This document shows, piece by piece, positions 5,188-28,896 of a DNA stretch of 64,000 bases. Numbering within the stretch: position 1 is the stretch's first letter; each line of letters begins with the position of its first letter. The stretch covers positions 1-64,000 of the forward strand of contig SHZJ01000006.1 in assembly GCA_009692365.1 (NCBI GenBank), given 5' to 3'. Made by a program: the position numbers and the translations under genes. Below the pieces are notes generated by a model. The model saw only the letters and a list, made by a program, of their open reading frames with translations. It did not search any database and had not been told where the DNA came from. Origin of the DNA: Gammaproteobacteria bacterium. Lineage in GTDB: Bacteria > Pseudomonadota > Gammaproteobacteria > Ga0077536.

Positions 5188-6564
5188 TTAGGTGCCCAAG
5201 CGCGTGATCGCGGATTCGGTGAGGTATTTCTCGTACAGGCTCTGGTCGTTGACCTTCATCTCATATCCCCCCCGAATGGTGCGGGTTTGTTCGAGGCGGG
5301 TCATGCGGTTGCTCTGCACGTCGTGGGCATGCACGTTGACCCACGACCAGTAGGGATATTTACCGTCCATCACTTTCTGGTCGCCATTCTCATACAGCGA
5401 ATAACTGCCATCGAAGGACTTGAAGGGTTCGCCGCGGCGGTCGTAGGAGACCATATTCACCGGCAACAGGGTGCGGGCATCGAACCACACGCGTTTTTTG
5501 CCCACCGGGGCCTGCGGATAGGAAGTAGGCTCGGCGTCGACGATGATGACTTCCGGGATGAGCTCGACCTTGGTATCCCAAAACGTAATATTTTTCGGAC
5601 CACCGTGGACTTTGCCCTCCCAGTTGGGATCGGCGCTGTTCCAGTTCTGCGTCAGTCCGGCCAGGAACGGGCCGCGGCCCACAATTTTAAAATTGCCCCA
5701 GGTGAGATAGGGATCGCCGGCCGCCCAGGCGTCGGAAAGATACAGTGTGGTGCCGGGAATGAGCGGCTCAAAACGCTGACTGGCGGGAAAGCGTCGCACG
5801 CGTTTGAAGGCCGGCAAATAGCCCATCAACTCGGGGAATACAGCCTGATCGTAATCCCAGATGTTGAGAAATGAAGTGCCTTTGGCGTCGTTGGGGTAGG
5901 TAAAAAAAACCGACTGGTAGCGCAGTTTTTTTTCGGAACCCGGCAAATAAGGTTTGGGATCCAGCGTGACCCGGCCCACCGAAGCCATTTCGCACCAGCC
6001 CACTTCGTAGTAGTAGCCTTGGTCGCCGTCGGCGTTAATTTCATAGTCTTTCACCATGTAGAACGACACATCGTGGCGACCCCACGACAGCGTAATGGGC
6101 ACAAAGACTTCCAACGCGGAGTGTGGTTCTGGAAACGGATTGCCGCCAATCCACGGCTTGCCTTCCAGGGTATAAATATTGCCTTTTGCGTCGAGCTTCG
6201 CTTGGCCTTTGTTGCGCAAAGTGGCCTCGATATAGTCGACGGGCGACAGATGGGTCATGTCTTTCGTGCTCTCGACAATGCCGATTTTCCGGCCCATTTG
6301 CTTGACCTGCATATAACGGATGGGATCCAGCAAGTCTTGCAACAGGTCGACGTTGTCGGCGGTGATGACGTCCCCCGGCTTGAAGCCGCCCTTGGTGTAC
6401 ACCTCGATGGACAGCAGTTCGTCGGGATAAACCTTCTCGAAGGTGCCGTTTTGGGCCACCGCGTCCCACACCGTCCCAAACACCCCTGCGGCAAATACAT
6501 TCTTAGCCGTCTGCTTGATGAAGTGTCGTCTGCTGAAGTCAGCGTCATATTTGCGAATTCTCAT
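5188..6564 (-). CDS. DUF1329 family protein with Tat signal
   Basis: A 458-residue DUF1329 protein. The N-terminus has a twin-arginine motif (SRRHFIK) followed by a hydrophobic stretch, so export in folded form is predicted. The rest is rich in aromatic residues and shows the beta-strand-rich, LolA/LolB-like pattern of the family (WGRHDVSFYMV, KKRVWFDARTLLPV, LPAFKRVRRFP). The ATG at 6564 follows GGGGAG at good spacing. DUF1329 proteins are known to me as companions of DUF1302 proteins, YCF48 proteins and RND/MMPL exporters in proteobacteria; all three lie within 14 kb here. It is the last gene of the minus-strand run and starts 61 bp after the COG0523 GTPase. A role in handling a hydrophobic molecule in the envelope is inferred; the biochemistry is unknown. 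Confidence 0.92.
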   Translation of the reverse strand: MRIRKYDADFSRRHFIKQTAKNVFAAGVFGTVWDAVAQNGTFEKVYPDELLSIEVYTKGGFKPGDVITADNVDLLQDLLDPIRYMQVKQMGRKIGIVESTKDMTHLSPVDYIEATLRNKGQAKLDAKGNIYTLEGKPWIGGNPFPEPHSALEVFVPITLSWGRHDVSFYMVKDYEINADGDQGYYYEVGWCEMASVGRVTLDPKPYLPGSEKKLRYQSVFFTYPNDAKGTSFLNIWDYDQAVFPELMGYLPAFKRVRRFPASQRFEPLIPGTTLYLSDAWAAGDPYLTWGNFKIVGRGPFLAGLTQNWNSADPNWEGKVHGGPKNITFWDTKVELIPEVIIVDAEPTSYPQAPVGKKRVWFDARTLLPVNMVSYDRRGEPFKSFDGSYSLYENGDQKVMDGKYPYWSWVNVHAHDVQSNRMTRLEQTRTIRGGYEMKVNDQSLYEKYLTESAITRLGT

Positions 6565-6625: not shown

Positions 6626-7621
6626 TTAGAGACACAGCGCAATGAATCGTTCCTCGATGCGCTGAGTGTCCAGTGCTCGTCCAATAAACACAATTCGACT
6701 GCTGTGGTCGGGATCGGGCCACGCCTCCAGCCATTGCAGCGGATAAAACTTATTTTGCACCGCGTGGATCAGCGCCGGCTGGCCCGGCTTGCTGACGAAT
6801 TCGGCGATACCCTTAATACGCAAAATCTGGCTACCTAGTTCATTGACCACCCGATTTAAAAATACCGAGGTCCCCGCCAAACTCAGCGGCCCGGCGTGGC
6901 GACACACGTGACTCTGGTACTGCAAAGCGTGGTCGTGCCCCTGCGGGTGAGCGTGATCCGCGTGCCGCGACAGCCAATCGCCCAACTGTGCGGCGCGCTG
7001 GTCGGGGTTAAAGCGGGGCTGGCCCACCAAACGGCTGGCGGGCGCAGCCCCCTGGATGGCCTCTAGGCATTCGGCCGCCGGATTGATCGCCGCAATGAGC
7101 GCGCGGGTGGCGGCAAGTTCCGCCGTCGTAGCGAGGTCGGTTTTGGAGATAACCAAGACATCGGCGAGCGCCACTTGGTCAGCCGCGGTCGCGTGATCAC
7201 GCAGCGTGGCCGGCGCATTGACCGCGTCGACCACGCTGACTATTTCTTCCAGCCGCACCGTACTTACCAGCGCGGGGGTGACCATCAGGGTGTGCGCCAG
7301 CGGCACCGGATCGGCCAGCCCGCTGGTTTCGATGACGATGCGGCGAAATGCCGGCACCTCGCCCAACGCACGCTTGTAGAGTAAATCATGGATGGTCAGC
7401 GCCAGATCGCCGCGTATCGTGCAGCACAGGCAGCCATTACGCAGTTCCACGATGCTTTCGGCGAGCTGCGCCACGACGAGGTGGTCGATGCTCACCTCAC
7501 CAAACTCGTTAATGATAACCACCGTGTCGGCGAGCTCTGGTGCGGCTAATAACTGCGCCAGCAGCGTGGTTTTGCCGCTGCCGAGAAAGCCCGTGAGTAA
7601 AGTGACAGGGAGACGTTTCAT
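6626..7621 (-). CDS. CobW/COG0523 family GTPase, putative metallochaperone
   Basis: A 331-residue G3E GTPase. Walker A is GFLGSGKTTLL near the N-terminus. GCLCCTIRGD supplies the family CxCC metal-binding motif. A guanine-specificity motif appears as SKTDL near residue 160. A histidine-rich segment (HADHAHPQGHDH, about residues 214-230) precedes the C-terminal CobW_C domain. COG0523 proteins deliver zinc, cobalt or other metals to client enzymes in the cytoplasm. The gene starts 21 bp after the acyl-CoA synthetase stop, without a clear ribosome binding site, so it probably depends on upstream translation. No zinc-uptake genes or obvious Zur box are nearby. The client could be one of the hydantoinase/carboxylase-family metalloenzymes, but that is a guess. 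Confidence 0.93.
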   Translation of the reverse strand: MKRLPVTLLTGFLGSGKTTLLAQLLAAPELADTVVIINEFGEVSIDHLVVAQLAESIVELRNGCLCCTIRGDLALTIHDLLYKRALGEVPAFRRIVIETSGLADPVPLAHTLMVTPALVSTVRLEEIVSVVDAVNAPATLRDHATAADQVALADVLVISKTDLATTAELAATRALIAAINPAAECLEAIQGAAPASRLVGQPRFNPDQRAAQLGDWLSRHADHAHPQGHDHALQYQSHVCRHAGPLSLAGTSVFLNRVVNELGSQILRIKGIAEFVSKPGQPALIHAVQNKFYPLQWLEAWPDPDHSSRIVFIGRALDTQRIEERFIALCL

Positions 7622-7642: not shown

Positions 7643-9208
7643 TTAATTGACGGCACGATCGGTGTTGACCCAAAACTTCTTGCGAATTTCGGTCTTAAGC
7701 ACTTTACCCACTGGCGAGCGCGGCAGCTCGGGCCAAATTTCCACGTTTTTTGGTGCCTTCACGCTGCCGAGTCGCGCTTTGGCGAAGGCGACGATTTCCG
7801 CCACGCTGAGCGTGCGCCCGGGGCGCAAGACCACGATGGCTGTGACCGCTTCACCCCATTTGGGATCGGGCACACCAATGACGGCGCAGTTTTCAATCGC
7901 AGGATGGGCGTTGATGGCGCTCTCTACTTCGGCCGAGAAAACGTTAAAGCCCCCGGTGATGATCATGTCTTTCTTGCGGTCGATGATGTAGACGTAGCCT
8001 TCTTCGTCTTGATAGGCGACATCCCCCGTGTGATGCCAGCCAAACTGCCGCGCCTCCGCCGTGCCTTCCGGATTGAGGTAATAACAGGGCGCGACCAAAT
8101 CGCCGCGCACCACGATTTCTCCCTGCTCGCCGCGCGCCAGCAGCCGACCCTCGTCGTCCATCACCGCCATGAGCGTGAGCGCGCAGGGTTTACCGCAGCT
8201 TTTTAGCAGATGCGCCCGCGCTGGGTTGCGCACCGCGCTCGCGAGTTCCGCGGGTGGCAGATAGGTCACCAGCATGGGCGCTTCGACCTGCCCGTAGCAT
8301 TGACACAGGCTAGGCCCGAAAACATCCACCGCTTCGGCCAGTTTGTCGGGCGACACCGGTGAGGCGGCGATCAGGAAATGGGTCAGCGAGGAGTAATCAA
8401 ACTCGCGCACCCGTGGATGCGCTAACAGCGCATAGAGCGCCGTGGGCGGCAAAAACACGTGCGTGACGCGGTGCTGCTCGATGGTTTCCATGATTTCCAG
8501 CGGGTCAATTTTTTCTACCACCACATGGGTCGGCGCCTGCGGGGTGAGCATGAAAGCGAGAATGCCGGCGGCGTGGGTCATGGGCGCGGCGCACAGATGC
8601 ACGGGCGGCACCGGACTGGCGAGCGTGATGCAGGTTTCTGCGATCAGCGTGGACCACGTGAGGTTGGTCCATAAAATACCCTTCGCCCGTCCGGTGGTGC
8701 CGCCGCTGCCCAGAATGGTGGTCATGCGGTCGGCAGCGTAGGGCAGGTCGGGAATGGTATGGCCGTCGCCCTCGGACAGAAACTCTGCCAAGGCCACGCC
8801 GGCGCCGTCGCCGTCGGGGGCGTCGATGCACACCGTGTGGCGCAGGGTCGGCACCTGGGCCCGAATCGCCGCCGCGTTGGCGCTAAACACACTGTGATAG
8901 AACAGCCATTCGCACTGCGTGAGGTTCATGAAATCGATGTTGGTGTCCAAGGCGTTGCGGGCGTTGATGGGCACCCAAGTGGCGTTGGCGCGGAACGCAC
9001 CCAGCACGCAGGCAAACGCGCTCACATCGTTCGGCGCATACACCGCGATGCGCCCCGCGTCGGACAGACCCCGCGCCACAATCGCGCGGCCGATTCGGTG
9101 CGACAGGGCCTGCATCTGGGTGTAGCTGTAGCGCTTGGGGCCGGCCACAAAAGCCGTGCGCTCGGGATGCGCATCGGCGGCTTTGTCAAAAAAATCGATG
9201 ACGCGCAT
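7643..9208 (-). CDS. AMP-forming acyl-CoA synthetase/ligase
   Basis: A 521-residue ANL-superfamily adenylating enzyme. It has the P-loop-like motif GSGGTTGRAKG (about residue 170), YGQVEAP, the hinge and ATP-ribose motif HTGDVAYQDEEGYVYI with DRKKDMIITGG, and the catalytic lysine segment SPVGKVLKTEIRKKF near the C-terminus. It should activate a carboxylic acid to its CoA thioester in the cytoplasm. The ATG at 9208 follows GAGGAGGAAG, which settles the start; an in-frame upstream extension to 9253 lacks a site. It sits 52 bp after the helical-repeat gene and 21 bp before the GTPase, so it is likely part of the same long transcript as the Exb genes. The substrate is unknown; fatty, cinnamic and aryl acids are all possible. 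Confidence 0.93.
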   Translation of the reverse strand: MRVIDFFDKAADAHPERTAFVAGPKRYSYTQMQALSHRIGRAIVARGLSDAGRIAVYAPNDVSAFACVLGAFRANATWVPINARNALDTNIDFMNLTQCEWLFYHSVFSANAAAIRAQVPTLRHTVCIDAPDGDGAGVALAEFLSEGDGHTIPDLPYAADRMTTILGSGGTTGRAKGILWTNLTWSTLIAETCITLASPVPPVHLCAAPMTHAAGILAFMLTPQAPTHVVVEKIDPLEIMETIEQHRVTHVFLPPTALYALLAHPRVREFDYSSLTHFLIAASPVSPDKLAEAVDVFGPSLCQCYGQVEAPMLVTYLPPAELASAVRNPARAHLLKSCGKPCALTLMAVMDDEGRLLARGEQGEIVVRGDLVAPCYYLNPEGTAEARQFGWHHTGDVAYQDEEGYVYIIDRKKDMIITGGFNVFSAEVESAINAHPAIENCAVIGVPDPKWGEAVTAIVVLRPGRTLSVAEIVAFAKARLGSVKAPKNVEIWPELPRSPVGKVLKTEIRKKFWVNTDRAVN

Positions 9209-9260
9209 CGCACACTTCCTCCTCAGATTGCTTGGCGCACAACAGCCGCCCAACCCTCAT

Positions 9261-11459
9261 TCAAGCCGCTGGACAACTGACCTGCTGGCGCAACGTCGCC
9301 CAGCGCTTGCCCCACGCGGGCGTCGGTGGGTGCTGCGGCACCACCTTGCTGACCAATTCGCAGGCGGCGGCCGGGCGGGTGGACTGCGCCCGAATTTCAA
9401 TCCGGCTGAGCATACCCTCCCACCAGACTTCAAAGCTTGGCGGCACTTTGCTGGTGATAACGCCCCAAGCATTATCGGCCTCGATCAGGCGCTTGGTTTG
9501 CTGCGCCGCCTTGGCCAGCATGCGGTAGCCGTCGCCGGCCTTGGGATAGTCGGCCAGCAGCGCGCGCGCAGCGGTGTAAGCCTCCTCACCGCGCCCGCTC
9601 TCCAGCAGCAGTTCAATATTGAGCAAGCGGAAACGGCGTTCCATTTCGGGCAGGCCTTTGAGCTTCGGTGCGAGGCTGGCCGCAAATTCTGCCTGCAGGG
9701 CGTGGTCGGGCAAATGCTTCACCCACGGGTACAGCTGCTCCGCCATCCAGCCCGGCACGGGCGTCTGCCGCCCGGCAATTTCAGCGAGTGCGCGCCGCGG
9801 CTGACCCAAGCGGTCGTAGAGTCGCAGACGCGCCCAGAAGAAGCCGCGCTGCGCGGTCACGCTCACCCCGGGTTGTTGCTCGGCCAGGGCAATCGCTGTT
9901 AAAACGGCGGCCGGATCGGGATCTGCCACCGCGCGCAGCTGTAAATAGAACGCCTGATTGTCGCGGTTCTCTTGCTGTTCATCCGACAGCGTTGCCCACA
10001 CCCCTAGCCCTTCACGCGCGAGTGCTTCGGCACCGCCGCCGGGCTTATTGGCCACCTTGGCAAACTGGCGCGCGATAACGAAAAACCGCGCGGTCTCGAT
10101 GCTGCCACGGGCGTTGGCGGGCGACTTAATACCGTTGAGAAGCCTGAGTGCCGCGGTGGTATCGCCCAAAGACTGGGCCAGATTGATGCGCGCGCCGTTG
10201 GCATCTGGGTCGTTGGGGCTGACCTCCAGAAAATGCCGGGCGGCGCGTGCCAGTTCCTCTCGCGAGGCCAGGGTGGACTTGGACGCCATGCGCCGCGCTC
10301 GCGCCACATACGCCAATTTGGTCGCCGCTTTCATCACGTCGGGCTCAAGCTTGGGCGTTTGCAGCAGTTGGTCGGCCAACCGCGCCGCTTCTTCATTGAG
10401 ATCGCTTTTGAGGCTCGCCACCGCGTAGCGGTATTTAAAGCGCTCGAAGTGCAGGTCGCTGCCGCGCGGCTCGGCGGCGAAAAATTCCTTATATTTGCGC
10501 GCCGCCGGGAACCACTGCTGGTTGCTGAAAGCAAACTCTGCGGCCACCAGCGCGCCGAAGGCACCCAGATTCTCGCTGACAATTTCGCTTTGGTACTTCA
10601 GCACATCCACCAGTAAGGCCATGTTCATGCCGCCGGCGGCGATCACCGCACGCAGTTTCGCGCCGGCTTCACGCGCGCCGACTTTGGTTTGGCGATGTTG
10701 CTCCAGCAGCACAAAAATGGGCTCTAGCGCCGGGTCGCGGGGCCCGGCCGCAGCACCGCTAGCCCCGCCACTGCTGCCCGGCAAGCCCTTCCCCGCCAGC
10801 ATCGCCAACTCGGCCTCTGCGGCTTTGCGCACCGGGTGCTTGTCGTCAAACGACAGGGCTTTGATCAGGCTCTCAAAGATTTTCCGGGCCTGCACCAGGT
10901 TGTGTTCAGCCACCGCCAGAAAACCTAGCCCCAACCAGCCGCCGTACACCAAACTCGGCTGATAGATTTGCATGGACGCCGCGCGGAAACCCCGTTTCGC
11001 GCGCCACAGCAATTGCACGCGGTCCCCGGCCTGCGTGGGCCGCCCGGCTAGGCTGAGGTCTAACCAAGCGCCCCAAAACGGGAACGCCGTGAGCGAGAAG
11101 CTCAGGTCTTCCCACTCGGACGAGCGATACAGCCCCTCCAGCGCGGCCTCGTCACCGCCCCCGGCCCGCTCTGCCGCCTCTAAACGCGCGAGTGTTCGCT
11201 GGCGCATTTCTGCGGCGAGCTTGCGCAGTCTGAGCAGGTCGCCATCCGGCGCATCCTGCTGGCGTACCTGGTCCACCAGCGCGCCAAAGTTGCGCGCGGT
11301 CGCCGCATAGGTCGGCGTAGGTGCCTCGGCGCTCAACGCGCCCAGCAGGCCCTGAGCCCGCGCTAGCGGTGCCTCCGCGCCCGCCGCCGGGTTCGCGCAC
11401 AGCCAGCCCAACACCCCTAACAGGGGGTAGAACCAAGCGAGGCGCGCGGTGGTTTTCAC
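9261..11459 (-). CDS. Secreted alpha-helical (TPR-like) repeat protein of the Exb/VWA operon
   Basis: A 732-residue, Ala/Leu-rich protein with a signal peptide (hydrophobic residues about 9-28, ending near GAEA). The rest has TPR-like helical-hairpin periodicity, for example EPIFVLLEQHRQTKV, AEFAFSNQQWFPAARKYKEF and NDPDANGARINLAQSL. It begins with GTG at 11459, and the TGA of the preceding VWA gene overlaps it (GTGA), so the two are translationally coupled. A periplasmic scaffold acting with the TonB-like VWA protein is the simplest reading. I recognise no enzymatic motif. The assignment to a helical-repeat class rests on composition and repeated aromatic/Ala patterns, not on a profile search. 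Confidence 0.85.
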   Translation of the reverse strand: MKTTARLAWFYPLLGVLGWLCANPAAGAEAPLARAQGLLGALSAEAPTPTYAATARNFGALVDQVRQQDAPDGDLLRLRKLAAEMRQRTLARLEAAERAGGGDEAALEGLYRSSEWEDLSFSLTAFPFWGAWLDLSLAGRPTQAGDRVQLLWRAKRGFRAASMQIYQPSLVYGGWLGLGFLAVAEHNLVQARKIFESLIKALSFDDKHPVRKAAEAELAMLAGKGLPGSSGGASGAAAGPRDPALEPIFVLLEQHRQTKVGAREAGAKLRAVIAAGGMNMALLVDVLKYQSEIVSENLGAFGALVAAEFAFSNQQWFPAARKYKEFFAAEPRGSDLHFERFKYRYAVASLKSDLNEEAARLADQLLQTPKLEPDVMKAATKLAYVARARRMASKSTLASREELARAARHFLEVSPNDPDANGARINLAQSLGDTTAALRLLNGIKSPANARGSIETARFFVIARQFAKVANKPGGGAEALAREGLGVWATLSDEQQENRDNQAFYLQLRAVADPDPAAVLTAIALAEQQPGVSVTAQRGFFWARLRLYDRLGQPRRALAEIAGRQTPVPGWMAEQLYPWVKHLPDHALQAEFAASLAPKLKGLPEMERRFRLLNIELLLESGRGEEAYTAARALLADYPKAGDGYRMLAKAAQQTKRLIEADNAWGVITSKVPPSFEVWWEGMLSRIEIRAQSTRPAAACELVSKVVPQHPPTPAWGKRWATLRQQVSCPAA

Positions 11460-12679
11460 AGTAAATCCAGCAGGGCTTTCATTTCACGGGCGAACTGATC
11501 GCCCATGATGAGGATGGTCAAGCGGCGGGTCAGCGAGACTTCGCCTTCTAAGGTTGCGGCGTCACCGTTGCCCGCATCGGCGATATTGCGGAACTGATAC
11601 ATGGAATCATTGCGATACATCGCGTGGTTCACCTTGCGCCCCACGCGGGCCTCCACCGCGGAGGGATTGGACTGGTCGCTTACGTCCAGCGTCGACACCA
11701 CCCCGCCCGTATTGACGAAGCGCTCCACCACGCTAATCGCCTTGCCAATATTGCTCTCCGAGGGCGGTGCGTCCCCGATCAGGATGATGATACGGCGCGC
11801 GCCACTGCGCCATTCGGCGTTATCCACCCCCTCGCGCAGCCCTTCCTGCACCGCCTCGAACATGTCGCCCCCACCGGCCGCCTGCAGCGCCCCTAAGAAG
11901 CCTTGCAACTTGAGGGTGCTGTAGGTCAAATTTTGCGTTCGCGTGACAAATTCCGCGTCCCCTTCGTCGCGATAAGCGACCACGCCAAAACGCGAAATGG
12001 GCACCAGCGAGCGCACCACCGAGGTGATGTCGAGGATGCGGCTTTTTACCTCATCGATGACCCAGCCCATCGAGCCGGTGGCGTCGACCACAAACAGCAC
12101 ATCCAGCCCGCCCTCGCGCATGCCCTCTACATACGCCGCAAACTGGTTGCTCGAGCCGCCCAACGCATTACCAATACCCACGCCAAACCCGGACGTTCCC
12201 CCACCGCTGCCCCCGCTGGTGCCCCCTTTGCTTACCGGCGACAAAATTCCCACGGTGGGCACCGTGGCGTGGCGCGCCAAATTGGCCCCCGCGCTGTCTT
12301 GATTCGCCAGTGCAATCTCCACGGGGGCGGTGTCTTCGCCCGCCCCGCCCGCCTGCGCACTCAGCGCCAACGGCACGTTGGGCGGAGGTGGCGCCACGGC
12401 CTGTGGCGCGAGCAGCACCTCGGGTGGCTCGACCTCAAATTCCTCTTCGAAATCTAGTGGCTCATCGGTGGGCGGCTCGGCCGTCTGCGGCTCTGGCACC
12501 TCCCCTTTGGCGATTTCCAGGACCACCCGACGTTTTTTTTCTTTGGCCAAGTTGGCCAGCGCGGCTTTGGCGTCCTCTTGCTCCCGGATTCCCCCCCCAA
12601 TCCTGGAGGTTACCAAGCCATGGATCACCACCGAAAACAGCAGGAGTACCAACCAAGTGAGCGGGCGACGCACGCGCAA
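11456..12679 (-). CDS. TonB-like transmembrane/proline-rich N-terminus fused to a von Willebrand factor A domain
   Basis: A 407-residue protein. Residues 7-24 form one transmembrane helix containing FSVVIHG, with Ser16 and His20, the SxxxH pattern that TonB uses to contact ExbB/ExbD. Residues 60-105 are Pro/Glu-rich (EPPTDEP, APPPPNVP), like the TonB periplasmic linker. A Gly/Ser-rich hinge (about 151-175) leads to a VWA domain (about 190-385) with the MIDAS signature DATGSMG (D199, T201, S203). No TonB C-terminal domain is present. The protein should be anchored in the inner membrane with VWA in the periplasm, and could pull on a partner through a metal-dependent contact. It lies 20 bp after the second exbD and overlaps the helical-repeat gene by 4 bp. 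The TonB analogy is inferred from motif and context. Confidence 0.9.
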   Translation of the reverse strand: MRVRRPLTWLVLLLFSVVIHGLVTSRIGGGIREQEDAKAALANLAKEKKRRVVLEIAKGEVPEPQTAEPPTDEPLDFEEEFEVEPPEVLLAPQAVAPPPPNVPLALSAQAGGAGEDTAPVEIALANQDSAGANLARHATVPTVGILSPVSKGGTSGGSGGGTSGFGVGIGNALGGSSNQFAAYVEGMREGGLDVLFVVDATGSMGWVIDEVKSRILDITSVVRSLVPISRFGVVAYRDEGDAEFVTRTQNLTYSTLKLQGFLGALQAAGGGDMFEAVQEGLREGVDNAEWRSGARRIIILIGDAPPSESNIGKAISVVERFVNTGGVVSTLDVSDQSNPSAVEARVGRKVNHAMYRNDSMYQFRNIADAGNGDAATLEGEVSLTRRLTILIMGDQFAREMKALLDLL

Positions 12680-12699: not shown

Positions 12700-13131
12700 T
12701 CATGGGCGGGCAACGGTTTCCAGCGACACGCGGGTGATGCCCGCCTCAGCCACCTGCTCGATCACCCGCGCCACCACGACGGCGTCCGTCGCGGCGTCGG
12801 CCGCGACTTTTAAATCCTGCACCGCGCCCGCCTTGCGCAGCGCCAGCGGCAGCGCGTTAGCTGCCACCACGGCGGCATTCAGCAGCAGCGTTCCATCGGC
12901 TTTTATCACGAGCTGCGGCGCCTCCTCCGGCAACGCATTCGTCGCGGCACTCTTGGGTGGCGTCACCTGCAGATGGACGTCGAATTTAGCCGCCACGATG
13001 AAAAACAGGATCAGCAGAAAAATCACGTTGAGCAGGAAGAACGTGCTTTCCCAACGCCGCTCGCGCGCCTCGTCGATGCTTTGCTTGAGGCTGACATCGG
13101 TAGTCGAGCGGCGGCTGAGGTCTACCATCAT
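12700..13131 (-). CDS. exbD: ExbD/TolR-family protein with Asn replacing the channel Asp
   Basis: A 143-residue ExbD/TolR-like protein: short cytoplasmic N-terminus, one transmembrane helix (about residues 31-47), and a periplasmic alpha/beta domain (KADGTLLLNAAVV, AATDAVVVARVIEQVAEAGI). Aligned by eye with ExbD, FLLNVIFLLILFFIVAA matches PFIDVMLVLLIIFMVAA, which places Asn35 (codon 13027-13029) at the protonatable Asp25 of E. coli ExbD. That substitution inactivates characterised ExbD, so this subunit probably cannot carry protons alone and may pair with the Asp-bearing ExbD upstream. The tandem ATG ATG at 13131/13128 follows AGGCAAAG; I took the first. The gap to the first exbD is 10 bp. 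Annotation as a TolR variant is equally valid. Confidence 0.88.
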   Translation of the reverse strand: MMVDLSRRSTTDVSLKQSIDEARERRWESTFFLLNVIFLLILFFIVAAKFDVHLQVTPPKSAATNALPEEAPQLVIKADGTLLLNAAVVAANALPLALRKAGAVQDLKVAADAATDAVVVARVIEQVAEAGITRVSLETVARP

Positions 13132-13141
13132 CAGACTTTGC

Positions 13142-13570
13142 CTATTTGAACTGCCGCGCGACGCGCAGCGAAATCTTGCGGAAGCCACCTGCGTTCAGCA
13201 CATCCATCACGTCCACCGCGCGCTGCAAGGGCACGCCCACGTCGCTCGCCAAAATCACCGGCTTCGTCACGCTGCGTGGCAGCGCGCCGGCCAAGCCCGC
13301 AAAGTCACGGCGCTCACCGTCTAACCACAGGCTGCCGTCTTGGTGCAGTTCGATGTAGATGACGGAAGATTCTGCACTGCTCGCGCCGGCCTCCAGTTGC
13401 TCTTTTTTTTCGTTCCGCAGGTCCACCCCGTGCGGAATCGAAAAGCTGCTTTGCAGCATGAAAAAAATGAGCAAAATAATGAAGCAGTCCACCAGCGGCA
13501 CAAAGGTAATGCGGATAGACCGCCGCCGTAGCCGGCCCAGCGCCAGCGAGACCCGCTGGACTTCAGCCAC
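13142..13570 (-). CDS. exbD: ExbD/TolR-family proton channel subunit (canonical Asp)
   Basis: A 142-residue ExbD/TolR protein. A basic N-terminus precedes the transmembrane helix FVPLVDCFIILLIFFML, with the conserved Asp at residue 28 (codon 13487-13489). The periplasmic domain shows the family pattern (SSVIYIELHQDGSLWLDG, ILASDVGVPLQRAVDVMDVLNAGGF). In ExbB-ExbD complexes this Asp relays protons through the ExbB pentamer. The gene overlaps exbB by 8 bp and precedes the Asn-bearing paralogue by 10 bp, implying co-translation and a mixed ExbD pair. Confidence 0.93.
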   Translation of the reverse strand: MAEVQRVSLALGRLRRRSIRITFVPLVDCFIILLIFFMLQSSFSIPHGVDLRNEKKEQLEAGASSAESSVIYIELHQDGSLWLDGERRDFAGLAGALPRSVTKPVILASDVGVPLQRAVDVMDVLNAGGFRKISLRVARQFK

Positions 13571-14225
13571 GGCCGACGCCTAGCGTAAGGACTTTGGTGA
13601 GCAAGTTCGAGGTTTCCTCAGCTACGCGCTCCAGACGGGTCTGCAGCAGCGCGTGCAAGGCGGTAAAAATGATGGCAATGACCAAGCCCACGGCGGTGCA
13701 GACCAAGGCCTCCCAAATGCCGTTCGCCAGGGCGCTAGAACCGGCTTCGGTGCCAGCCACCACCGCCAGATGCCGAAAGGCGTCGATCATCCCCAGCACC
13801 GTGCCCAATAGACCCAACACTGGGGAGAGGTAGTACACAATTTCCAGCGCCCGCAGCAGACTGCCGTAGGGGCGTAAGAAAAACATGCCGCGCCGGGAAA
13901 GCTCGTCGCGGAGTTGCTCGCGATCGGCGGTGGCGAGATTCTGCAGGCCAAACTGGAGGTCTCGCGCCAGCCCCAGCCGAGCCCGGCCCAGCAGCTTTAG
14001 GGCTAGTTCGGTCTCGCCCTCGCCCCATAAGTCGATGGCGCGCTCGGCGGCTCTGAAACGGCTGGTGGAGATGGCGATGAACTGCAGCAGCTTGTAGAGC
14101 ACCATGGCAAAGCCGATGGTCGAGATAACGAGCTGCACCGCCACCACTGGGCCGCCTAATTCGACCAGCGTTAACGCGGAGTCCCAGGTGTAGGTCAGTA
14201 GATCCGTCAAATTCTGAATTTCCAT
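13563..14225 (-). CDS. exbB: MotA/TolQ/ExbB-family proton channel protein
   Basis: A 220-residue ExbB/TolQ homologue with three membrane segments: about 22-45 (VAVQLVISTIGFAMVLYKLL), 125-150 (YYLSPVLGLLGTVLGMI) and 165-190 (ALVCTAVGLVIAIIFTAL). The GLLGTVLGM and TAxGLxxAI motifs contain the two pore-lining Thr residues of ExbB. It forms the stator pentamer that uses the proton motive force in the inner membrane. It is the first gene of the exb/VWA operon and overlaps exbD by 8 bp. Its ATG at 14225 has only a weak ribosome binding site. The promoter must lie in the about 100 bp before the DUF1302 terminator, or transcription reads through. Confidence 0.93.
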   Translation of the reverse strand: MEIQNLTDLLTYTWDSALTLVELGGPVVAVQLVISTIGFAMVLYKLLQFIAISTSRFRAAERAIDLWGEGETELALKLLGRARLGLARDLQFGLQNLATADREQLRDELSRRGMFFLRPYGSLLRALEIVYYLSPVLGLLGTVLGMIDAFRHLAVVAGTEAGSSALANGIWEALVCTAVGLVIAIIFTALHALLQTRLERVAEETSNLLTKVLTLGVGRG

Positions 14226-14380: not shown

Positions 14381-16696
14381 TTAGAAGTAGTAGGTTACCC
14401 GGGCAAAGACTTCGTCGGCCCAGTCCAGGGTCTCGACGACGTCGTCGTTCTGCTTGGGCGTCAAGTCAACCAACACATTGGCGTAGAGGTCTACCTGCCA
14501 ATGCGTGCTGGGCTTGTACTTCACACCAGGCTGCAGCAGCACGCCGCCCTGAATATCAATCAGCATCGCGTAGTCGGCGCGCCAAATGAGGTTCGGGAAG
14601 GGCTGCTGGAACGCCAAGGAGATGTAGTCAGCGCTGGTCTGTCCAACCGGGCGGCCGCAGCCCTTCTCGCGCGCACCGGTGGAATTGAGGCCGGTGACGG
14701 GGTCGGTTGCGGAAGTCGCCGTGGGCAGGCAGCCCGTCGTGGCCTTCAGCTTGTCCTGATTGCCGCTCAAATGCCGACCGAACAAGTCGCTCTGCGTTTT
14801 GTGCATCCACTGGCCCACTAAGTAGGTGGCCGGCAGACCGGGCACCACGTTGTGGTACTTCTCCAAGATTAACGCCGAAGAGACTTCCGTCGCTTCAATA
14901 AACGAGCCGGCCCGCAGGTCTAGCGCCGTGAACACCTTGTTGGGCGTGATGGCCAACTCGCCGCGGATAATCAATTGGTCTAACCAAGAGCCCGGGGTGG
15001 AATTCACAATATAGTTGCCCGATGCACCGGTAATCGTCTCGCGCTCGAACTGCCGGGTGATGTAACCCCGGGGGAACGCGAAGCCGTTAAAGAAGGCGTC
15101 CAGAATGTTGCGGGTGGCGTCGTAGGTGAAAGGCGTCTTCTTGTTTTTCTGGCCGCCGATGTTGTTAAACAGCATCCTCGCGCCGACGGGGTCCCTAAGG
15201 CCCCCGTTCGGGCTCGTTGCAATCCCGAACATCGCAGTCGTCAGCGTGGACGCGTTGGTGCCGCTTTTTTCGGCACCCCCGTTTAAGAAGCCCAGCACGC
15301 CTTCGATGGGATTAAGACGCGCTTTCCCTGCGTAGGTCATCCATTCCTTCCAGGCAGCCGTGCCCATGCGGTCCGGCGAAGCATTAGCACCGCACTTGCC
15401 CTTAGACATGGGAGTAAGCAGCTCGGTGACGTCATTTTGGCCGTTCTGATTGTTGTCTAAGGCAGTGCCGAGAGCCTGCAACCCAAATCCAGTTAGGATG
15501 TTCCCCGCGTAGTTATTCGGCCCAAAGCAGAACGGGTTGGCGGAGCCGTCACCCAGCTTCAGGGGCGCATCCGCCCACTGCACCACGCCGTCGGGGTTTA
15601 GGCGGCTGACCGCCATCAAGCCCAACGTGAGGCTGTCGGTGACGGGCATGGTGATGCGCGTGCCGTAGTTCACGTTGTTGCGGAGGATTTCGCTTTGCCC
15701 GGTATCCCGCCAAGAAAAACCAGACGCCACCACGTTATAGGGTGTGTTGGTACCCACCAAGGTGGTAGGGGCGGCCATTTGCACGAAGGTGTCGGCGGTC
15801 CAGCCGTTCTTGAAGGTGTAGTTCACGCGCAGGGCAGGCGCTGCCACCCGCTTGTCGGAGAACTCCTCGGCGCCCACGTCCAAGGTGAAGTGACGGCGAG
15901 TATCGAGCCCGTTAGGCACGTCGAAGACCCGGAAGAAATAAGCCTCACCCCAGGCGATTTGCTGCTGGCCCAGGCGCACCCATAATGGGCCGCTGTTATA
16001 GTCGAGATAGGCCGAAGGGATATCGAGCATAAAGTTCGGCGTGTTGTATTCCAGCAGGTTGCCGCGACCGCCTATCCAGCCAAAGTCGGCGTTGAAATGG
16101 CTGTCGGTTTGCCCGTTGCCCAGCAGCTCTTGGTAGTCAGAGTAAGCGCGAATTTTGACGAAAGAATTGAGTTCGTCGGTCCATTTGGCCTGGATGTCCA
16201 GCTCGACGCGCGTGGCGAACAGGTTGAACTGGTTCATCCCCTTAACGGACCTAGCAGCGTCGCCGCAGTTATTGGACGTCACGCAGCCCGGGCCGCCGAA
16301 GGCGTTGGTGACCTGACCCGCGCCCGCCATGCGGCCTGCCCATTTTTGTACGTACGCCGCATCCCCTGCAGCGCTGCCGCTCGCCCTAGCCATCGGCTGG
16401 CTGAAGCCGCCGTTATCGAGCGGGAAGCCTTTGCCGCTGAACTGTTGGCCGGTTACTGAGCCGTTCGTGCCGGGTCCTGCAAGCCCACCGCCGTTCGTGG
16501 TGATGTTGGGAATGTTGCGGCCTAAGAAGGGGTTGGTTGAAGTGTTGTACGGGTTATCTTGCCCGGTCACGGAGATCGCGATTTCCTGCCGAACAAAGCC
16601 CGTGATATTGAAGTCCACGGCGTAGGCCGCGCTGCCCGCGAACATGCTGGCGGCGCCGCCGGCCAGCATCAGTCGCTTGATGGTGTTTTTAGTCAC
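14381..16696 (-). CDS. DUF1302 family outer-membrane-like protein
   Basis: A 771-residue DUF1302 protein. A signal peptide (basic start, MLAGGAASMFAGSAAYA, cleavage before VDF) is followed by a beta-strand-rich chain with porin-like alternation (WVRLGQQQIAWGEAYFF, LIWRADYAMLIDIQGG) and a C-terminal aromatic residue (RVTYYF), as in outer-membrane barrels. The start is the GTG at 16696: AGGAGG lies about 8 nt upstream, inside the apparent extension from an ATG at 16711, so the longer version would include its own ribosome binding site. An intrinsic terminator follows. It sits between the RND/YCF48 genes and the exb operon. The family often accompanies DUF1329 and RND/MMPL exporters; transport of hydrophobic compounds across the outer membrane is inferred, not shown. 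Confidence 0.92.
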   Translation of the reverse strand: MTKNTIKRLMLAGGAASMFAGSAAYAVDFNITGFVRQEIAISVTGQDNPYNTSTNPFLGRNIPNITTNGGGLAGPGTNGSVTGQQFSGKGFPLDNGGFSQPMARASGSAAGDAAYVQKWAGRMAGAGQVTNAFGGPGCVTSNNCGDAARSVKGMNQFNLFATRVELDIQAKWTDELNSFVKIRAYSDYQELLGNGQTDSHFNADFGWIGGRGNLLEYNTPNFMLDIPSAYLDYNSGPLWVRLGQQQIAWGEAYFFRVFDVPNGLDTRRHFTLDVGAEEFSDKRVAAPALRVNYTFKNGWTADTFVQMAAPTTLVGTNTPYNVVASGFSWRDTGQSEILRNNVNYGTRITMPVTDSLTLGLMAVSRLNPDGVVQWADAPLKLGDGSANPFCFGPNNYAGNILTGFGLQALGTALDNNQNGQNDVTELLTPMSKGKCGANASPDRMGTAAWKEWMTYAGKARLNPIEGVLGFLNGGAEKSGTNASTLTTAMFGIATSPNGGLRDPVGARMLFNNIGGQKNKKTPFTYDATRNILDAFFNGFAFPRGYITRQFERETITGASGNYIVNSTPGSWLDQLIIRGELAITPNKVFTALDLRAGSFIEATEVSSALILEKYHNVVPGLPATYLVGQWMHKTQSDLFGRHLSGNQDKLKATTGCLPTATSATDPVTGLNSTGAREKGCGRPVGQTSADYISLAFQQPFPNLIWRADYAMLIDIQGGVLLQPGVKYKPSTHWQVDLYANVLVDLTPKQNDDVVETLDWADEVFARVTYYF

Positions 16697-16876
16697 TCCC
16701 GCCCTCCTCATAAATCAACGTGAGATTAATGCTGGTCCCCATGTGCGGCCGTCGGCGCGTTCGGTTGCTAGGGACCTTAGCGTTCGAGGCGGCTCGCGCT
16801 GTTGCTTAGATGCAACGTTCTTTCTGTTTTAAAGACCTTATGGCGCTTTTTCGCCACGATCTGTTGCCTAGGACAG

Positions 16877-16974: not shown

Positions 16975-17994
16975 TTAACGCAACACCCGCGCGATCACAC
17001 CGTCGTGACCCGCGATGTAGACCACCTGTGTCACCATCGCCCCGCCCTCACCCTTCTCTTCTAGCTCACCCACCGCCACCGGCAGGTACCAGTTACGGAT
17101 GATGTCGATGTCAAAGGAGCGAGTGAACGTGGCGCCGGCGTCGCTACTACGCAGGAGCACCCGCATCCCGGTGGCCACAATTTCACCCTGCGGTGAGGCC
17201 CAAATGCCAAATAGGTTGGCATTGACATCGGTTTTCAGGGCTAGCCAAGTACCGCCGTTGTCGGTGGTTTTTAACACCATACCCTCCTGGCCGGCCGCAT
17301 ACCCCGTGCCGTTCGGCAGCATGTGCAGGGCAAACAGTGAGCGCTCCCCTTTATTGGTCAGCTTGAAGGTCTCACCGCCGTCGTCGGAAATCAACACGTA
17401 GGAGAATTCCGCCGCCAGCACGATGCGACCCGTTTCCTGTACGTCCACCCCGTAGATGTGCGGCTCGTAGCCATCGTCACGGAACCTCGCCCAGTCGACT
17501 ACCCGCCGCTCCCAGGTCTTGCCGCCGTCCTTAGAGCGCAGGATGGTGCCAAATTCCCCCACCGCAATCGCCAAACCCGCCGCGTTGAGGTCGACGTTTA
17601 ACAGCCGCGCCTCAGAGTCACTCTTAGCAACGACCCATTTTTCGCCCTCGTTCATCAGGATGGTGCCACGCTGCCCTACGATGAGCCGCTGGTCGCCGTT
17701 GATGCCGATGCCCAGCAGGCTGAGTTGGGTGGGCGATGCCATGGACGCCCAGGTTGCACCACCGTCGGTGGTTTGGAGGATGGCGCCCGCGCCGCCCACC
17801 GCCAAACCGTTTTTCCCGACGATGTTGAGGGCGTAGAGGGCGTCGTGAGGAATGCCCTTGTGCACGATTTTTAGTTGCGAGACCGGACCCTCCGCCGCGC
17901 CGACGGTAAAGGATACGGCCGAGCTGGCCAGTATGAGCGTCAGTCCGCAGAGGAGGCGTCGTCCGCCGCGGGCTAGCAAGTTGGTTTTTTCCAC
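16975..17994 (-). CDS. YCF48/HCF136-type beta-propeller protein (BNR-like repeats)
   Basis: A 339-residue protein with a signal peptide (hydrophobic residues about 13-33, ending VGAAEG) and recurring BNR/Asp-box-like blades: TTDGGATWASM, SKDGGKTWERR, SDDGGETFKLT, TTDNGGTWLAL and SSDAGATFTRS, spaced about 40-50 residues apart. This is the YCF48/photosystem II assembly factor-like propeller fold, which in heterotrophs has nothing to do with photosynthesis. It starts 44 bp after the RND/MMPL exporter stop and is probably co-transcribed with it. It is likely a periplasmic or outer-membrane-associated partner of the exporter. Its ligand is unknown. Confidence 0.93.
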   Translation of the reverse strand: MEKTNLLARGGRRLLCGLTLILASSAVSFTVGAAEGPVSQLKIVHKGIPHDALYALNIVGKNGLAVGGAGAILQTTDGGATWASMASPTQLSLLGIGINGDQRLIVGQRGTILMNEGEKWVVAKSDSEARLLNVDLNAAGLAIAVGEFGTILRSKDGGKTWERRVVDWARFRDDGYEPHIYGVDVQETGRIVLAAEFSYVLISDDGGETFKLTNKGERSLFALHMLPNGTGYAAGQEGMVLKTTDNGGTWLALKTDVNANLFGIWASPQGEIVATGMRVLLRSSDAGATFTRSFDIDIIRNWYLPVAVGELEEKGEGGAMVTQVVYIAGHDGVIARVLR

Positions 17995-18038: not shown

Positions 18039-20477
18039 TCAGGCGGCAGTTTTAACGTGCACTGACAGGTCGATTTTTTCCGAAATGAGTTGGTCTTCGG
18101 AAGCAATGAATTTGGGCTGGATCCACCACACTAACAGCGGCAGAACAATCAGCGAGATCACCATGTTGATGGTCATGACCATCACCAGCAGCAGGCCCAT
18201 GTCGGACAGGAATTTCAGTTTCGACATGAAGTACCAAGGTAAAATGCTGATGAGCACGATAGTGGCCGTAAAGAAAATGGCCTTGCCGGAGGTCTGGATG
18301 GCGTGTTGGATGGCCTGCCCGTAGTCCTTGGAGACCTGATAGTCCTCGCACATCCGGCTGACCAAGTAAATGCCATAGTCGATGCCGACGCCGATGCCGA
18401 TGCTGGCGATGGGCAGGCTGTTGACGTCCAGCCCAATTCCCAACAGCACCATGGCGGTTTCGAGCATGGCGTTGGAGAGATTAACCGGGACAAGGAGAAT
18501 GAAGCCTGCCACAAAAGAGCGATACGCAAAGGACGTCACAAAGAAAATAATGACGTTCAGGCAGCCCAGAATGAGCCACTTGTTCTGGCGAACCACGTCG
18601 TTCACCGACTGCTGCAGCGCAATTGCGCCGGTCGCGAGGCGGATGCGGAAGTTGGGGTGTTCAGCACCGACCGCCGCGACCGCACGACGGGCCTGGGCGA
18701 GTGCGAGGTCGACCGTCTCCTGCTTGTTATTTTTGTACCACAGCGACAGGGTGCCGTTCTGCAGGGTGAAGTCCGTGACGTGCCCGTAGTTTTTCGCGTT
18801 AGACCCCATTAGCAACGCGATAACCGTCCCGTCGACGGCGACATCGGTCGGGTCGACCGGCCCCATCTTGGGGTTGCCTCCGCTCAGCAGCCGGCTGGCT
18901 TCCGGGAGATAGTCCGCAAACGACAGGGTAGCCTCGGGCGGATTCGGCTCGGACTCCAACAAGCGCTGCATTTGCGACATCACCGACAGAGTTTCGCTTT
19001 GGCGCATGATGCGCGGCGCCTTCTCCCCTTGGTAGCTCGCACCCGCCGCCTCGCCATTGCCTTTGGCCTCGAACACAATTTCGAGGGTCATGAGGCCCGG
19101 GAAGTGCGAGTTGATGGCGCGTACCGCAGCGTTGAACTGCGAATCCGGGAACAGCAGGTTGCTGCCTTCCACCGGGTTGCCGATGCGCAGCTTGGTCATA
19201 CCAAACACCGACAGCGCCGCGATGATCAGCACGACGATCGTGGTGGTGCGGGCCTTCTCCCCGTGGGAGAGTCGCCCCACTGCGCCCAGCATGTTGATGA
19301 GTTTGTTATGCCAGGTGATTTTGTCGGATTTCCCGATCAAGATGGCGACGTTCTTCGGCGTAGGCAGGTAGGAAGCCAATAAAGCGGAAAGAAAAACGTC
19401 GGTCGGAATCAGTGCGACGGCCCAAGTGCCCGTAAACACCGCGAAGCGCTGCATGACGGGGATGGGCGCGATGGCGATGAGGTACAGACACACGAAATCG
19501 GTGATGATGCCCAGCACGCCGGGCGCCATCATGACGCCTAGGGACAGTTCCGCCGCTTTACGTTTGTCTTTAACTTCGTAAAGGATTTCGTAGTAGCGCT
19601 CGAGATACTGCACGCAGTGGGAGAACGCGCGCGCCACCAACAGCATGGGGACTACCATGATCAGGGGCTCAATGGGCTGATGGAGCCAGCCGGTCAAGCC
19701 AAAGCCCCAAGTACCACCGATGATACTGACCGTAACGGGCGCGACCACCCCTGGCACGTTGCCCATGTACAGCACCAGCGACAGGACGAGCAAGCTGGCC
19801 GTAATGGCGAAAATAGTGAGCATTTGCACTTGGTAGTGATAGACCCAGCCGGTCAGCATGGGTTGGCCGGCGGCGTAGATCTCGTGATGCTCGTCGCGCA
19901 TTTTCTCGACCATCGCCTGCACGTACTTGAAGGTTTCGCCGTAATCGAGCGTGCGCTCGATAAACGTGGCGGACACCAGGGTAGCGGTCTCGTCACCGGA
20001 AATAAGGAAAGTCCGCACGTTGGCGGCTTTGTCTACCCGCGAACGAAAGTCGCCGATTTCCTCTTCGTTCGAGGGCGCTTTGGCGTCCATCAGCGGGTTG
20101 ACTTCCACGCCATCGGGGGTCGCTTCTGAGTAGCGGGCCTTTTCGGTGGCAATCGACAGAATTTGGTCGTGGTCGACGGACGGCGCCAGATCGATTTCCC
20201 GCGTCATGTCCCACACTTTGCTCAGCGTGTCTTGGTTGTAGATGTCCCCGTCGGTGCGCTTGATCATAAAAGTAACGGTCAACGGGTTACCGAAGTTGCC
20301 GTGGTCTTTATAGGCCTGCACGAAGGGGTGATCACTGGGGAAAAGGTCGGAGAAAATGGTCTTGATCTCAACCTTGGTCAGCCCGACCGCGAAAAACGCG
20401 GTGATGGCCATCAAGACTGCCAGAGACAAATTTCGGTTACCGATAACCCACGCTGCAAGTCTGTGTCGAAGTCCCAT
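18039..20477 (-). CDS. RND-superfamily exporter (MMPL/patched-like)
   Basis: An 812-residue RND-type transporter. TM1 (about residues 13-32) is followed by a large periplasmic loop (NFGNPLTVTFMIKRTDG), a cluster of five to six helices (about 210-400, including GTWGFGLTGWLHQPIEPLIMVVPMLLVARAF), a second TM and loop, and a terminal helix cluster (about 615-790, with GIGLDVNSLPIASIGIGVGIDYGIYL). This duplicated topology and the GIGVGIDYGIYL segment are typical of MMPL/hopanoid/sterol-type exporters. I chose the ATG at 20477, where AAGG lies 11 nt upstream; a 24-residue Pro/Arg-rich extension is possible but unlikely. A good promoter lies about 270 bp upstream. It probably exports lipids or other hydrophobic molecules, using proton motive force, with the YCF48 and DUF1302/DUF1329 proteins. 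Confidence 0.93.
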   Translation of the reverse strand: MGLRHRLAAWVIGNRNLSLAVLMAITAFFAVGLTKVEIKTIFSDLFPSDHPFVQAYKDHGNFGNPLTVTFMIKRTDGDIYNQDTLSKVWDMTREIDLAPSVDHDQILSIATEKARYSEATPDGVEVNPLMDAKAPSNEEEIGDFRSRVDKAANVRTFLISGDETATLVSATFIERTLDYGETFKYVQAMVEKMRDEHHEIYAAGQPMLTGWVYHYQVQMLTIFAITASLLVLSLVLYMGNVPGVVAPVTVSIIGGTWGFGLTGWLHQPIEPLIMVVPMLLVARAFSHCVQYLERYYEILYEVKDKRKAAELSLGVMMAPGVLGIITDFVCLYLIAIAPIPVMQRFAVFTGTWAVALIPTDVFLSALLASYLPTPKNVAILIGKSDKITWHNKLINMLGAVGRLSHGEKARTTTIVVLIIAALSVFGMTKLRIGNPVEGSNLLFPDSQFNAAVRAINSHFPGLMTLEIVFEAKGNGEAAGASYQGEKAPRIMRQSETLSVMSQMQRLLESEPNPPEATLSFADYLPEASRLLSGGNPKMGPVDPTDVAVDGTVIALLMGSNAKNYGHVTDFTLQNGTLSLWYKNNKQETVDLALAQARRAVAAVGAEHPNFRIRLATGAIALQQSVNDVVRQNKWLILGCLNVIIFFVTSFAYRSFVAGFILLVPVNLSNAMLETAMVLLGIGLDVNSLPIASIGIGVGIDYGIYLVSRMCEDYQVSKDYGQAIQHAIQTSGKAIFFTATIVLISILPWYFMSKLKFLSDMGLLLVMVMTINMVISLIVLPLLVWWIQPKFIASEDQLISEKIDLSVHVKTAA

Positions 20478-20704
20478 TACGCTGATAACCTTAGGTTTTG
20501 GGGCGGGGCGCGGGCGTCTGCCGAGAGCCCCCGGAGGTGCTACTGGCAAGGCGCAACGCTGAACCGCGCGGCCCTTTTTGGGTGGATCGTTGGGTTGTGT
20601 GCGCTACTGTGGCGCTGGTGGTTAGAGCGGCCGGTTCGTGCTGTTCAATCAGCGCAACAGGGCTGCTGTCTCTTTTCCTTTATCTGATGAAATTGTCGTT
20701 CCCT

Positions 20705-28486: not shown

Positions 28487-28896
28487 GCAAGAGCTCTCTC
28501 AAAGGTCCGGGCCCAAACGGGCCGATTGTTTTTTGACTGTCGAATCCAAGCGGGGCCCGACCCTGCAGCAGGCCGGCGAGTACTCGAATGCAGACGGTTT
28601 TTCTGGTGGTCGCAGCGACCTCTGCAACCTCGCCTGTTCCGAAGGGCGATGGGCCGGCGCGACACCGTACATAAAAATCCCAGCAGGTGCTACCGGCAAT
28701 TAAGCCTTTAACATTGTGCAATTGCAGCAATTTAGGGATCGTCCCCCCACGAGACCCGCGCCAACCGCCCCGTGCTGGCGCGCCATCGCGCCCGGGCTAC
28801 GCTTCGGGCTAGGATGGACCACAGTTATCGCAGACGGTGCGCGCCGCCGCCGCCGCGGGACGGCCGTGTGTCGCCATTTTTGCCGGGGAAAATTTT
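28487..28896. other. 410-bp divergent control region between the carboxylase operon and the halogenase
   Basis: No supported gene; several short overlapping frames exist on both strands without ribosome binding sites or family resemblance. An AT-richer patch at about 28695-28735 contains the perfect 10-bp palindrome TGCAATTGCA (28717-28726), the best candidate for a regulator site here. I could not assign clear -35/-10 boxes. Confidence 0.5.

Follow-up and report, generated by a model that had tools for sequence, protein, structure and literature searches.

Force transducers that carry a von Willebrand factor A (vWA) domain were predicted in 2025 as a class of unknown function, with an SHLS-type helix and a gene beside tolQ, two tolR genes and a tetratricopeptide repeat (TPR) gene (Mol Biol Evol, PMC12204202, main text and gene maps). 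AmeABCD of Castellaniella defragrans comprises a DUF1302 protein, a DUF1329 protein, a YCF48-like protein and an HAE3-type resistance-nodulation-division (RND) transporter and is associated with monoterpene tolerance (PMC6394551); PP_0765, PP_0766, PP_2018 and PP_2019 of Pseudomonas putida form the same set and are associated with Tween 20 use (PMC10866462). Here, we analyzed a 64,000-nucleotide stretch of a Gammaproteobacteria bacterium (GenBank assembly GCA_009692365.1, contig SHZJ01000006.1, positions 1 to 64,000; hereafter the window), in which a vWA gene, exbB-exbD-exbD motor genes directly upstream of it on the same strand and an Ame-type gene set stand together. The vWA gene is an open reading frame (ORF) of 407 amino acids running from 12679 to 11456 on the minus strand, and the plus strand at 11456-12679 is not open. 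We consider it very probable that its product is a motor-coupled transducer. With distinctly less assurance, we also hold as probable the full statement that it is a TonB-type transducer in which vWA stands in for TonB_C and that the work done is Ame transport. The features of the gene are listed below, with residues numbered from the TTG codon at 12679.

11456 to 12679, minus strand: putative vWA transducer gene (transmembrane helix, Pro/Glu linker and vWA domain); GTG at 12673 is the likely true start
12653 to 12655, minus strand: Trp9, 11 residues ahead of the His (W-x10-H), in 36 of 38 sequences of alignment A2
12620 to 12634, minus strand: SxxxH in the transmembrane helix (Ser16/His20), the predicted motor-binding motif, invariant in 39/39 homologues
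12509 to 12532, minus strand: candidate 'motor box' beta strand RRVVLEIA, with alternating V/I columns 52-56, aligned by hhalign with a TonB strand
12152 to 12526, minus strand: disordered Pro/Glu-rich linker with conserved PPEVLIAPQAVAPPPP (alignment, AlphaFold2)
11540 to 12112, minus strand: vWA domain (Pfam, AlphaFold2, Foldseek)
12071 to 12085, minus strand: metal ion-dependent adhesion site (MIDAS), DATGS (alignment)

An earlier, sequence-only reading had described a transmembrane helix with SxxxH, a Pro/Glu linker, a vWA domain with DATGS, and exbB-exbD-exbD directly upstream, and all of this is confirmed on the minus strand by the ORF, Pfam and AlphaFold2. Pfam scores for VWA_4 (41.7 bits), VWA_2 (31.1) and VWA (28.5) all exceed their cut-offs. 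In the AlphaFold2 model, built with 38 homologues, residues 5-51 form a helix and residues 52-176 a disordered linker. A vWA domain with a Rossmann-type fold follows from about residue 175, with a predicted local distance difference test score (pLDDT) of about 90, and Foldseek matches it to BatB, inter-alpha-inhibitor and integrin I-like domains. Asp303 is invariant like the MIDAS residues, and the site would be expected to bind a metal. A TonB C-terminal domain was found in the protein by none of Pfam, AlphaFold2 and Foldseek; the vWA domain is there instead. The same reading had also noted that Ser16 and His20 bear the same residue numbers as in E. coli TonB, which is probably a start-codon coincidence. 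The sole Shine-Dalgarno sequence, GAGG (12684-12681), lies 1 nt from the TTG at 12679 and 7 nt from the GTG at 12673, which makes GTG the better start and the pair Ser14/His18; since the TTG is doubtful, the shared numbering is no evidence. A signal peptide was considered and rejected, given that no cleavage site is conserved and that the invariant His lies inside the helix. At position 25 the commonest residue is Trp, no small-x-small motif is conserved and the model is one continuous helix, so a signal-peptidase site that would remove the helix is unlikely.

The SxxxH motif is present in the first helix of all 39 vWA homologues, a set of 39 loci taken from named records, and Ser16 and His20 are the sole zero-entropy columns among the first 62 of alignment A2. 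The motif occurs in 3 of 394 other hydrophobic segments of neighboring proteins and in none of the 17 secreted VWA paralogues from genomes of the same class. Even in a deltaproteobacterial metagenome-assembled genome (MAG; L074), and likewise in a distant vWA protein (G389) encoded beside exbB-exbD-exbD, the pair is retained in a helix that is otherwise dissimilar. Homologues in the same neighborhood that lack the pair were looked for among the 39 loci and no case was found. The idea that the pair would occur only beside exbBD holds for 31 of the 36 informative loci, in which exbB/exbD adjoin the vWA gene, and fails for the other 5, which keep it with no adjacent exbBD. The full SHLS motif is not found in the vWA family (alignment A2), in which position 27 holds V, I, A or L and position 31 holds I or L rather than Ser; it is not a strict requirement for a transducer, given that the TonB proteins of the sister operons described below do not conserve even the Ser at -4 from the His. 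Among the matches listed, a strict search of a phylum-wide sample of 398 genomes gave no further close vWA homologue. Three MAGs labelled Klebsiella pneumoniae (L037, L040 and L070) carry loci close to those of the source family, which is gammaproteobacterial and uncultured, and their labels look wrong.

The N-terminus of the vWA protein also resembles that of TonB. With a 64-residue N-terminal profile of the vWA family as the query, hhalign returned a probability of 77.9 (E 1.8e-5) against the TonB N-termini of relatives, a hand-chosen set, and 90.7 (E 1.3e-6) against those of the sister operons. The two TonB sets aligned with each other about as well (92.5, E 4.8e-7), and controls with VWA signal peptides, ExbB, ExbD and MMPL segments reached at most 1.2. 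Picking the TonB sets for a His-bearing helix contributes to the score by design; with Ser and His masked, the match to the TonB N-termini of relatives still has an E value of 4.7e-4. Taken as a profile similarity over a short region, which is not proof, this is suggestive of kinship with TonB. A Pfam search restricted to residues 1-109 had no match.

The sister operons came from an ExbD2 profile search over 331 genomes of the class. In 16 gammaproteobacterial operons outside the vWA group (L229-L242, L246 and L249), exbB-exbD(Asp)-exbD(Asn) has a TonB-type gene immediately behind it; a sequence pattern identified the Asn in each of them except L249, where the pattern failed. Their TonB proteins have a W-x10-H helix in 15 of 16 cases (by reading), an EP-rich linker and, wherever the ORF is complete within the 1.5-kb flank, a TonB_C-like end, and Trp9 is hence common to them and to the vWA proteins. 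These closest other motors have a genuine TonB in the same gene order, which places the vWA gene in the slot of TonB. Most simply, this would mean that a TonB gene of this motor operon either exchanged its TonB_C for a vWA domain or gave way to a vWA transducer gene. The ExbB tree unites the vWA motors in a single clade (100/99), which joins the Asp/Asn TonB motors (87/84, 88/96) and stands apart from the TolQ/ExbB proteins of the genome itself. The proposal that the protein transduces the proton-motive force, made from the sequence alone, is thus well supported by the invariant SxxxH, the TonB-like N-terminal profile and the TonB slot. For this wider gammaproteobacterial arrangement, exbB-exbD(Asp)-exbD(Asn)-tonB, viewed with flanks of about 1.5 kb, no published account of the invariant Asn partner was found.

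The motor itself is encoded by three genes.

13563 to 14225, minus strand: exbB/tolQ-type motor subunit with both pore threonines kept (PF01618, alignment, tree)
13142 to 13570, minus strand: exbD1 with the canonical transmembrane Asp28 (codon 13487-13489; PF02472)
12700 to 13188, minus strand: exbD2 with Asn54 (codon 13027-13029) in place of the proton-binding Asp (PF02472)

The coding ends of exbB and exbD1, of exbD1 and exbD2, and of the vWA and TPR genes overlap. The transmembrane Asp of ExbD1 is kept in 33 of 33 vWA loci and the second ExbD has Asn at that site in 31 of 31, Asn54 being one of seven invariant columns of ExbD2 (alignment A5). E. coli ExbD is inactivated by loss of its transmembrane Asp, and the invariant Asn therefore implies that the ExbD heterodimer has a single proton site. 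We first took this Asn to mark out the vWA lineage and then rejected the idea, given that the TonB-bearing sister operons share it; it belongs to the broader motor family. A literature search found no description of an Asp/Asn ExbD pair.

Around the motor and the vWA gene, a same-strand run from 20549 to 5188 encodes, in order, MMPL/RND, YCF48-like, DUF1302, ExbB, ExbD1, ExbD2, vWA, TPR-like, acyl-CoA ligase, CobW and DUF1329 proteins.

18039 to 20549, minus strand: MMPL/HAE3 RND transporter, AmeD-like (PF03176; TIGR00921 at E 1e-36, under its cut-off)
16975 to 17994, minus strand: YCF48/BNR beta-propeller protein, AmeC-like (PF14870)
14381 to 16711, minus strand: DUF1302 outer-membrane barrel, AmeA-like (PF06980, alignment A3, AlphaFold2, porin/AlgE fold matches)
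9261 to 11459, minus strand: periplasmic protein with weak Pfam TPR matches, its start overlapping the vWA stop
7643 to 9253, minus strand: AMP-binding acyl-CoA ligase, a frequent cluster member
6626 to 7621, minus strand: CobW-type GTPase, a frequent cluster member
5188 to 6564, minus strand: DUF1329 LolA-like periplasmic carrier, AmeB-like (PF07044)

The TPR gene is next after the vWA gene in 39 of 39 loci. At least one of MMPL, YCF48 and DUF1302 is present in 22 of the 29 loci with at least 3.5 kb upstream (24 of 31 if two shorter loci are included), and DUF1329 in 26 of 34 informative loci. The MMPL/YCF48/DUF1302/DUF1329 set recurs from the vWA-bearing family to Halieaceae, and MMPL/YCF48 also in the deltaproteobacterial MAG. 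The five genomes of the class sample that have a close vWA homologue are exactly the five that have an MMPL of 65% identity or more. Three genomes in which no Ame genes adjoin the vWA gene have such genes elsewhere: on another contig of the L061 genome lies a complete specialized Ame-type locus, and the L067 and L068 genomes carry the YCF48-like gene of that locus type, L067 also the DUF1302 gene. In the DUF1302 protein the first strand follows straight after the signal peptide, with no N-terminal plug (alignment A3), and its fold matches are porin, OprP and AlgE, with no TonB-dependent receptors in the top 50. This setting suggests that the vWA module powers envelope traffic of hydrophobic compounds. 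The sequence-only reading had missed the Ame-type cluster around the gene, the TPR partner that always follows it and the pairing of an Asp with an Asn ExbD. Sequence comparison shows the architecture, the motif conservation, the operon slot, the relation to the TonB N-terminus, the motor phylogeny and the conservation of the cluster.

Several other genes of the window and genome were noted. Neighboring acyl-CoA ligase, thiolase and hydantoinase-type genes merely hint at an apolar substrate. The segment 20955-36688, beside the transport cluster, holds several hydantoinase/oxoprolinase-type A and B genes in an acetone/acetophenone-carboxylase-like arrangement, together with a conserved 309-aa protein that has no Pfam match and that, with the hydantoinase-type genes, recurs beside related clusters. 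A tryptophan-halogenase family gene (432 bits) lies at 28837-30429. A second MMPL in the same genome (G000:C35:98387-100780, L214) is 55% identical and has no cluster partner within about 8 kb.

From this arrangement we infer force transduction, the contact made by the vWA domain, its metal dependence, the substrate and the direction. The helix would dock through its Ser/His face on the side of an ExbB5-ExbD1-ExbD2 proton motor, and the periplasmic domains of the ExbDs would catch the strand just past it (52-57), which contains RRVVLEIA residues expected to pair with such a domain. The periplasm would be bridged by the Pro/Glu linker, and the vWA end and the TPR partner would pull on a partner on the outer-membrane side, most likely the DUF1302 barrel or the DUF1329/YCF48 carriers of the surrounding Ame-type RND system. 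Such pulling could power the outer-membrane transfer of a hydrophobic compound. The most specific form, in which a proton-motive-force motor with Asp/Asn ExbDs and a metal-binding, vWA-tipped transducer energize a plug-less DUF1302 barrel in an RND/LolA-like hydrophobic-compound pathway separate from TonB-dependent receptors and Tol-Pal, is tentative, and we regard it as close to evenly balanced.

A number of observations weigh against a transducer for Ame transport. ExbD2 lacks the proton-binding Asp, and the DUF1302 protein, whose modest AlphaFold2 model (pLDDT 62) is barrel-like, has neither a plug nor a TonB box. Five loci (L045, L053, L055, L062 and L074) keep SxxxH with no adjacent exbBD, and in two of them, L055 (1126-6495) and L062 (4256-9617), two tandem DUF1302 genes stand at the place of exbB-exbD-exbD. 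A motor encoded elsewhere may serve the vWA protein in trans in such genomes; the family genomes G017, G018 and G019, which correspond to loci with no adjacent exbBD, carry 5-7 ExbD genes each. We do not claim L133 of G019 as that motor, given that a different RND gene adjoins it and both of its ExbDs have Asp. L133 (G019:C24, 8608-13174) is an exbB-exbD-exbD operon by an MMPL/HpnN-like RND gene and a uppP-like gene. Neither a TonB nor a vWA gene adjoins it, and the tree places its ExbB, which has a long branch, within the clade of vWA motors. Finally, L060, L065, L066 and L075 have motor-vWA-TPR, yet their genomes show just distant YCF48 matches, with ordinary Ame clusters in three of the four. 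Hence, Ame coupling is frequent and not obligatory, and co-inheritance with the vWA module may be all that links the Ame genes to it.

This last point leads to an alternative that we judge unlikely, in which the protein is a genuine motor-driven vWA transducer that acts through the TPR partner on the envelope itself (adhesion, peptidoglycan or, as TolA does, outer-membrane tension). It would account for a TPR partner that is invariant while Ame genes are adjacent in about three-quarters of loci, for the four loci with no specialized Ame cluster, and for the vWA transducers of other phyla, which are placed beside a TPR gene with transport genes unmentioned in the main text of PMC12204202. It fits less well with the recurrence of the Ame set as far as Halieaceae and of MMPL/YCF48 in the deltaproteobacterial MAG, with the split specialized locus of the L061 genome and with the co-occurrence of close MMPL and vWA homologues in the same five genomes. 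vWA domains of the MIDAS type are often conformational switches, and ExbD2 Asn hints at a modified motor; the protein could accordingly dock on the motor as a metal-controlled clamp, in the role of a regulator or an assembly chaperone and not of a force arm. We consider this improbable, given that the protein shares the TonB layout of helix, strand, long Pro/Glu linker and C-terminal globule and that the operon has no other TonB gene. Slightly less probable still is an ordinary BatA/YfbK-like anchored vWA protein with an incidental SxxxH, next to a motor that serves the genome's own TonB proteins. vWA proteins are common and the genome encodes three TonB_C proteins, but the motif stays invariant although the rest of the helix drifts, it is absent from the secreted VWA paralogues and rare in the background segments, and both the N-terminal profile and the operon slot are those of TonB; on the motif invariance and these controls, we rejected a mere membrane anchor.

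With one lineage of vWA transducers tied to a defined transport cluster, a class of unknown function would gain a concrete and testable job. If true, energization by proton motors would reach beyond TonB-dependent receptors and Tol-Pal to a porin-like barrel. A natural domain-swap experiment is offered by operons whose sole difference is TonB or vWA at one position, and the invariant Asp/Asn ExbD pair bears on the need for two proton sites in ExbB5-ExbD2, which is central to current rotary models.

Compared with known systems, AmeABCD of Castellaniella shares the DUF1302 barrel, DUF1329, the YCF48-like protein and the HAE3-type RND transporter and differs in that motor or transducer genes are not described with it (PMC6394551); the ordinary Ame clusters L216, L217, L221 and L223 likewise have none, and our literature search found no link between DUF1302 and ExbB. 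TolA/TolQR also pairs a proton-motive-force motor with an SxxxH-helix transducer but has an alpha-helical/Pro linker, the TolA C-terminal domain and TolB/Pal as partners (in part after PMC12204202). The sister TonB operons have the same motor lineage, gene order, W-x10-H helix and Pro/Glu-rich linker, with TonB_C in place of vWA and a Ser that is not conserved (1.5-kb flanks viewed). Common descent with the Tichowtungia-type family was examined through G389, the nearest of the distant relatives. The vWA domain of G389 is related to the family (E 8.6e-53), but its ExbB has a long branch at another place in the tree, and G389 may have arisen separately or exchanged its motor; its locus, L135 (G389:C65, 9587-12638), reads vWA-exbB-exbD-exbD, with Asp in both ExbDs, downstream of a CusA-type RND gene (by eye). 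In the literature covered, including the main text of PMC12204202, we found no description of a coupling to RND/DUF1302 genes, of ExbD pairs with Asp in one and Asn in the other, or of TonB and vWA genes that replace each other at a single operon position. The sequence-only reading knew of no described system of this kind, a statement now superseded by the vWA force transducers of that paper. Their gene maps are mainly from the PVC group, and the main text gives neither an RND/DUF1302 link nor an Asp/Asn ExbD pair. They share a Ser/His transmembrane helix, a disordered linker with a motor box, a C-terminal vWA domain, tolQ/exbB, two different tolR/exbD genes and a TPR gene with the locus described here, and judged by these sequence features as that text sets them out, the vWA protein of the window fits this transducer class in helix, linker, vWA domain, motor and TPR partner.

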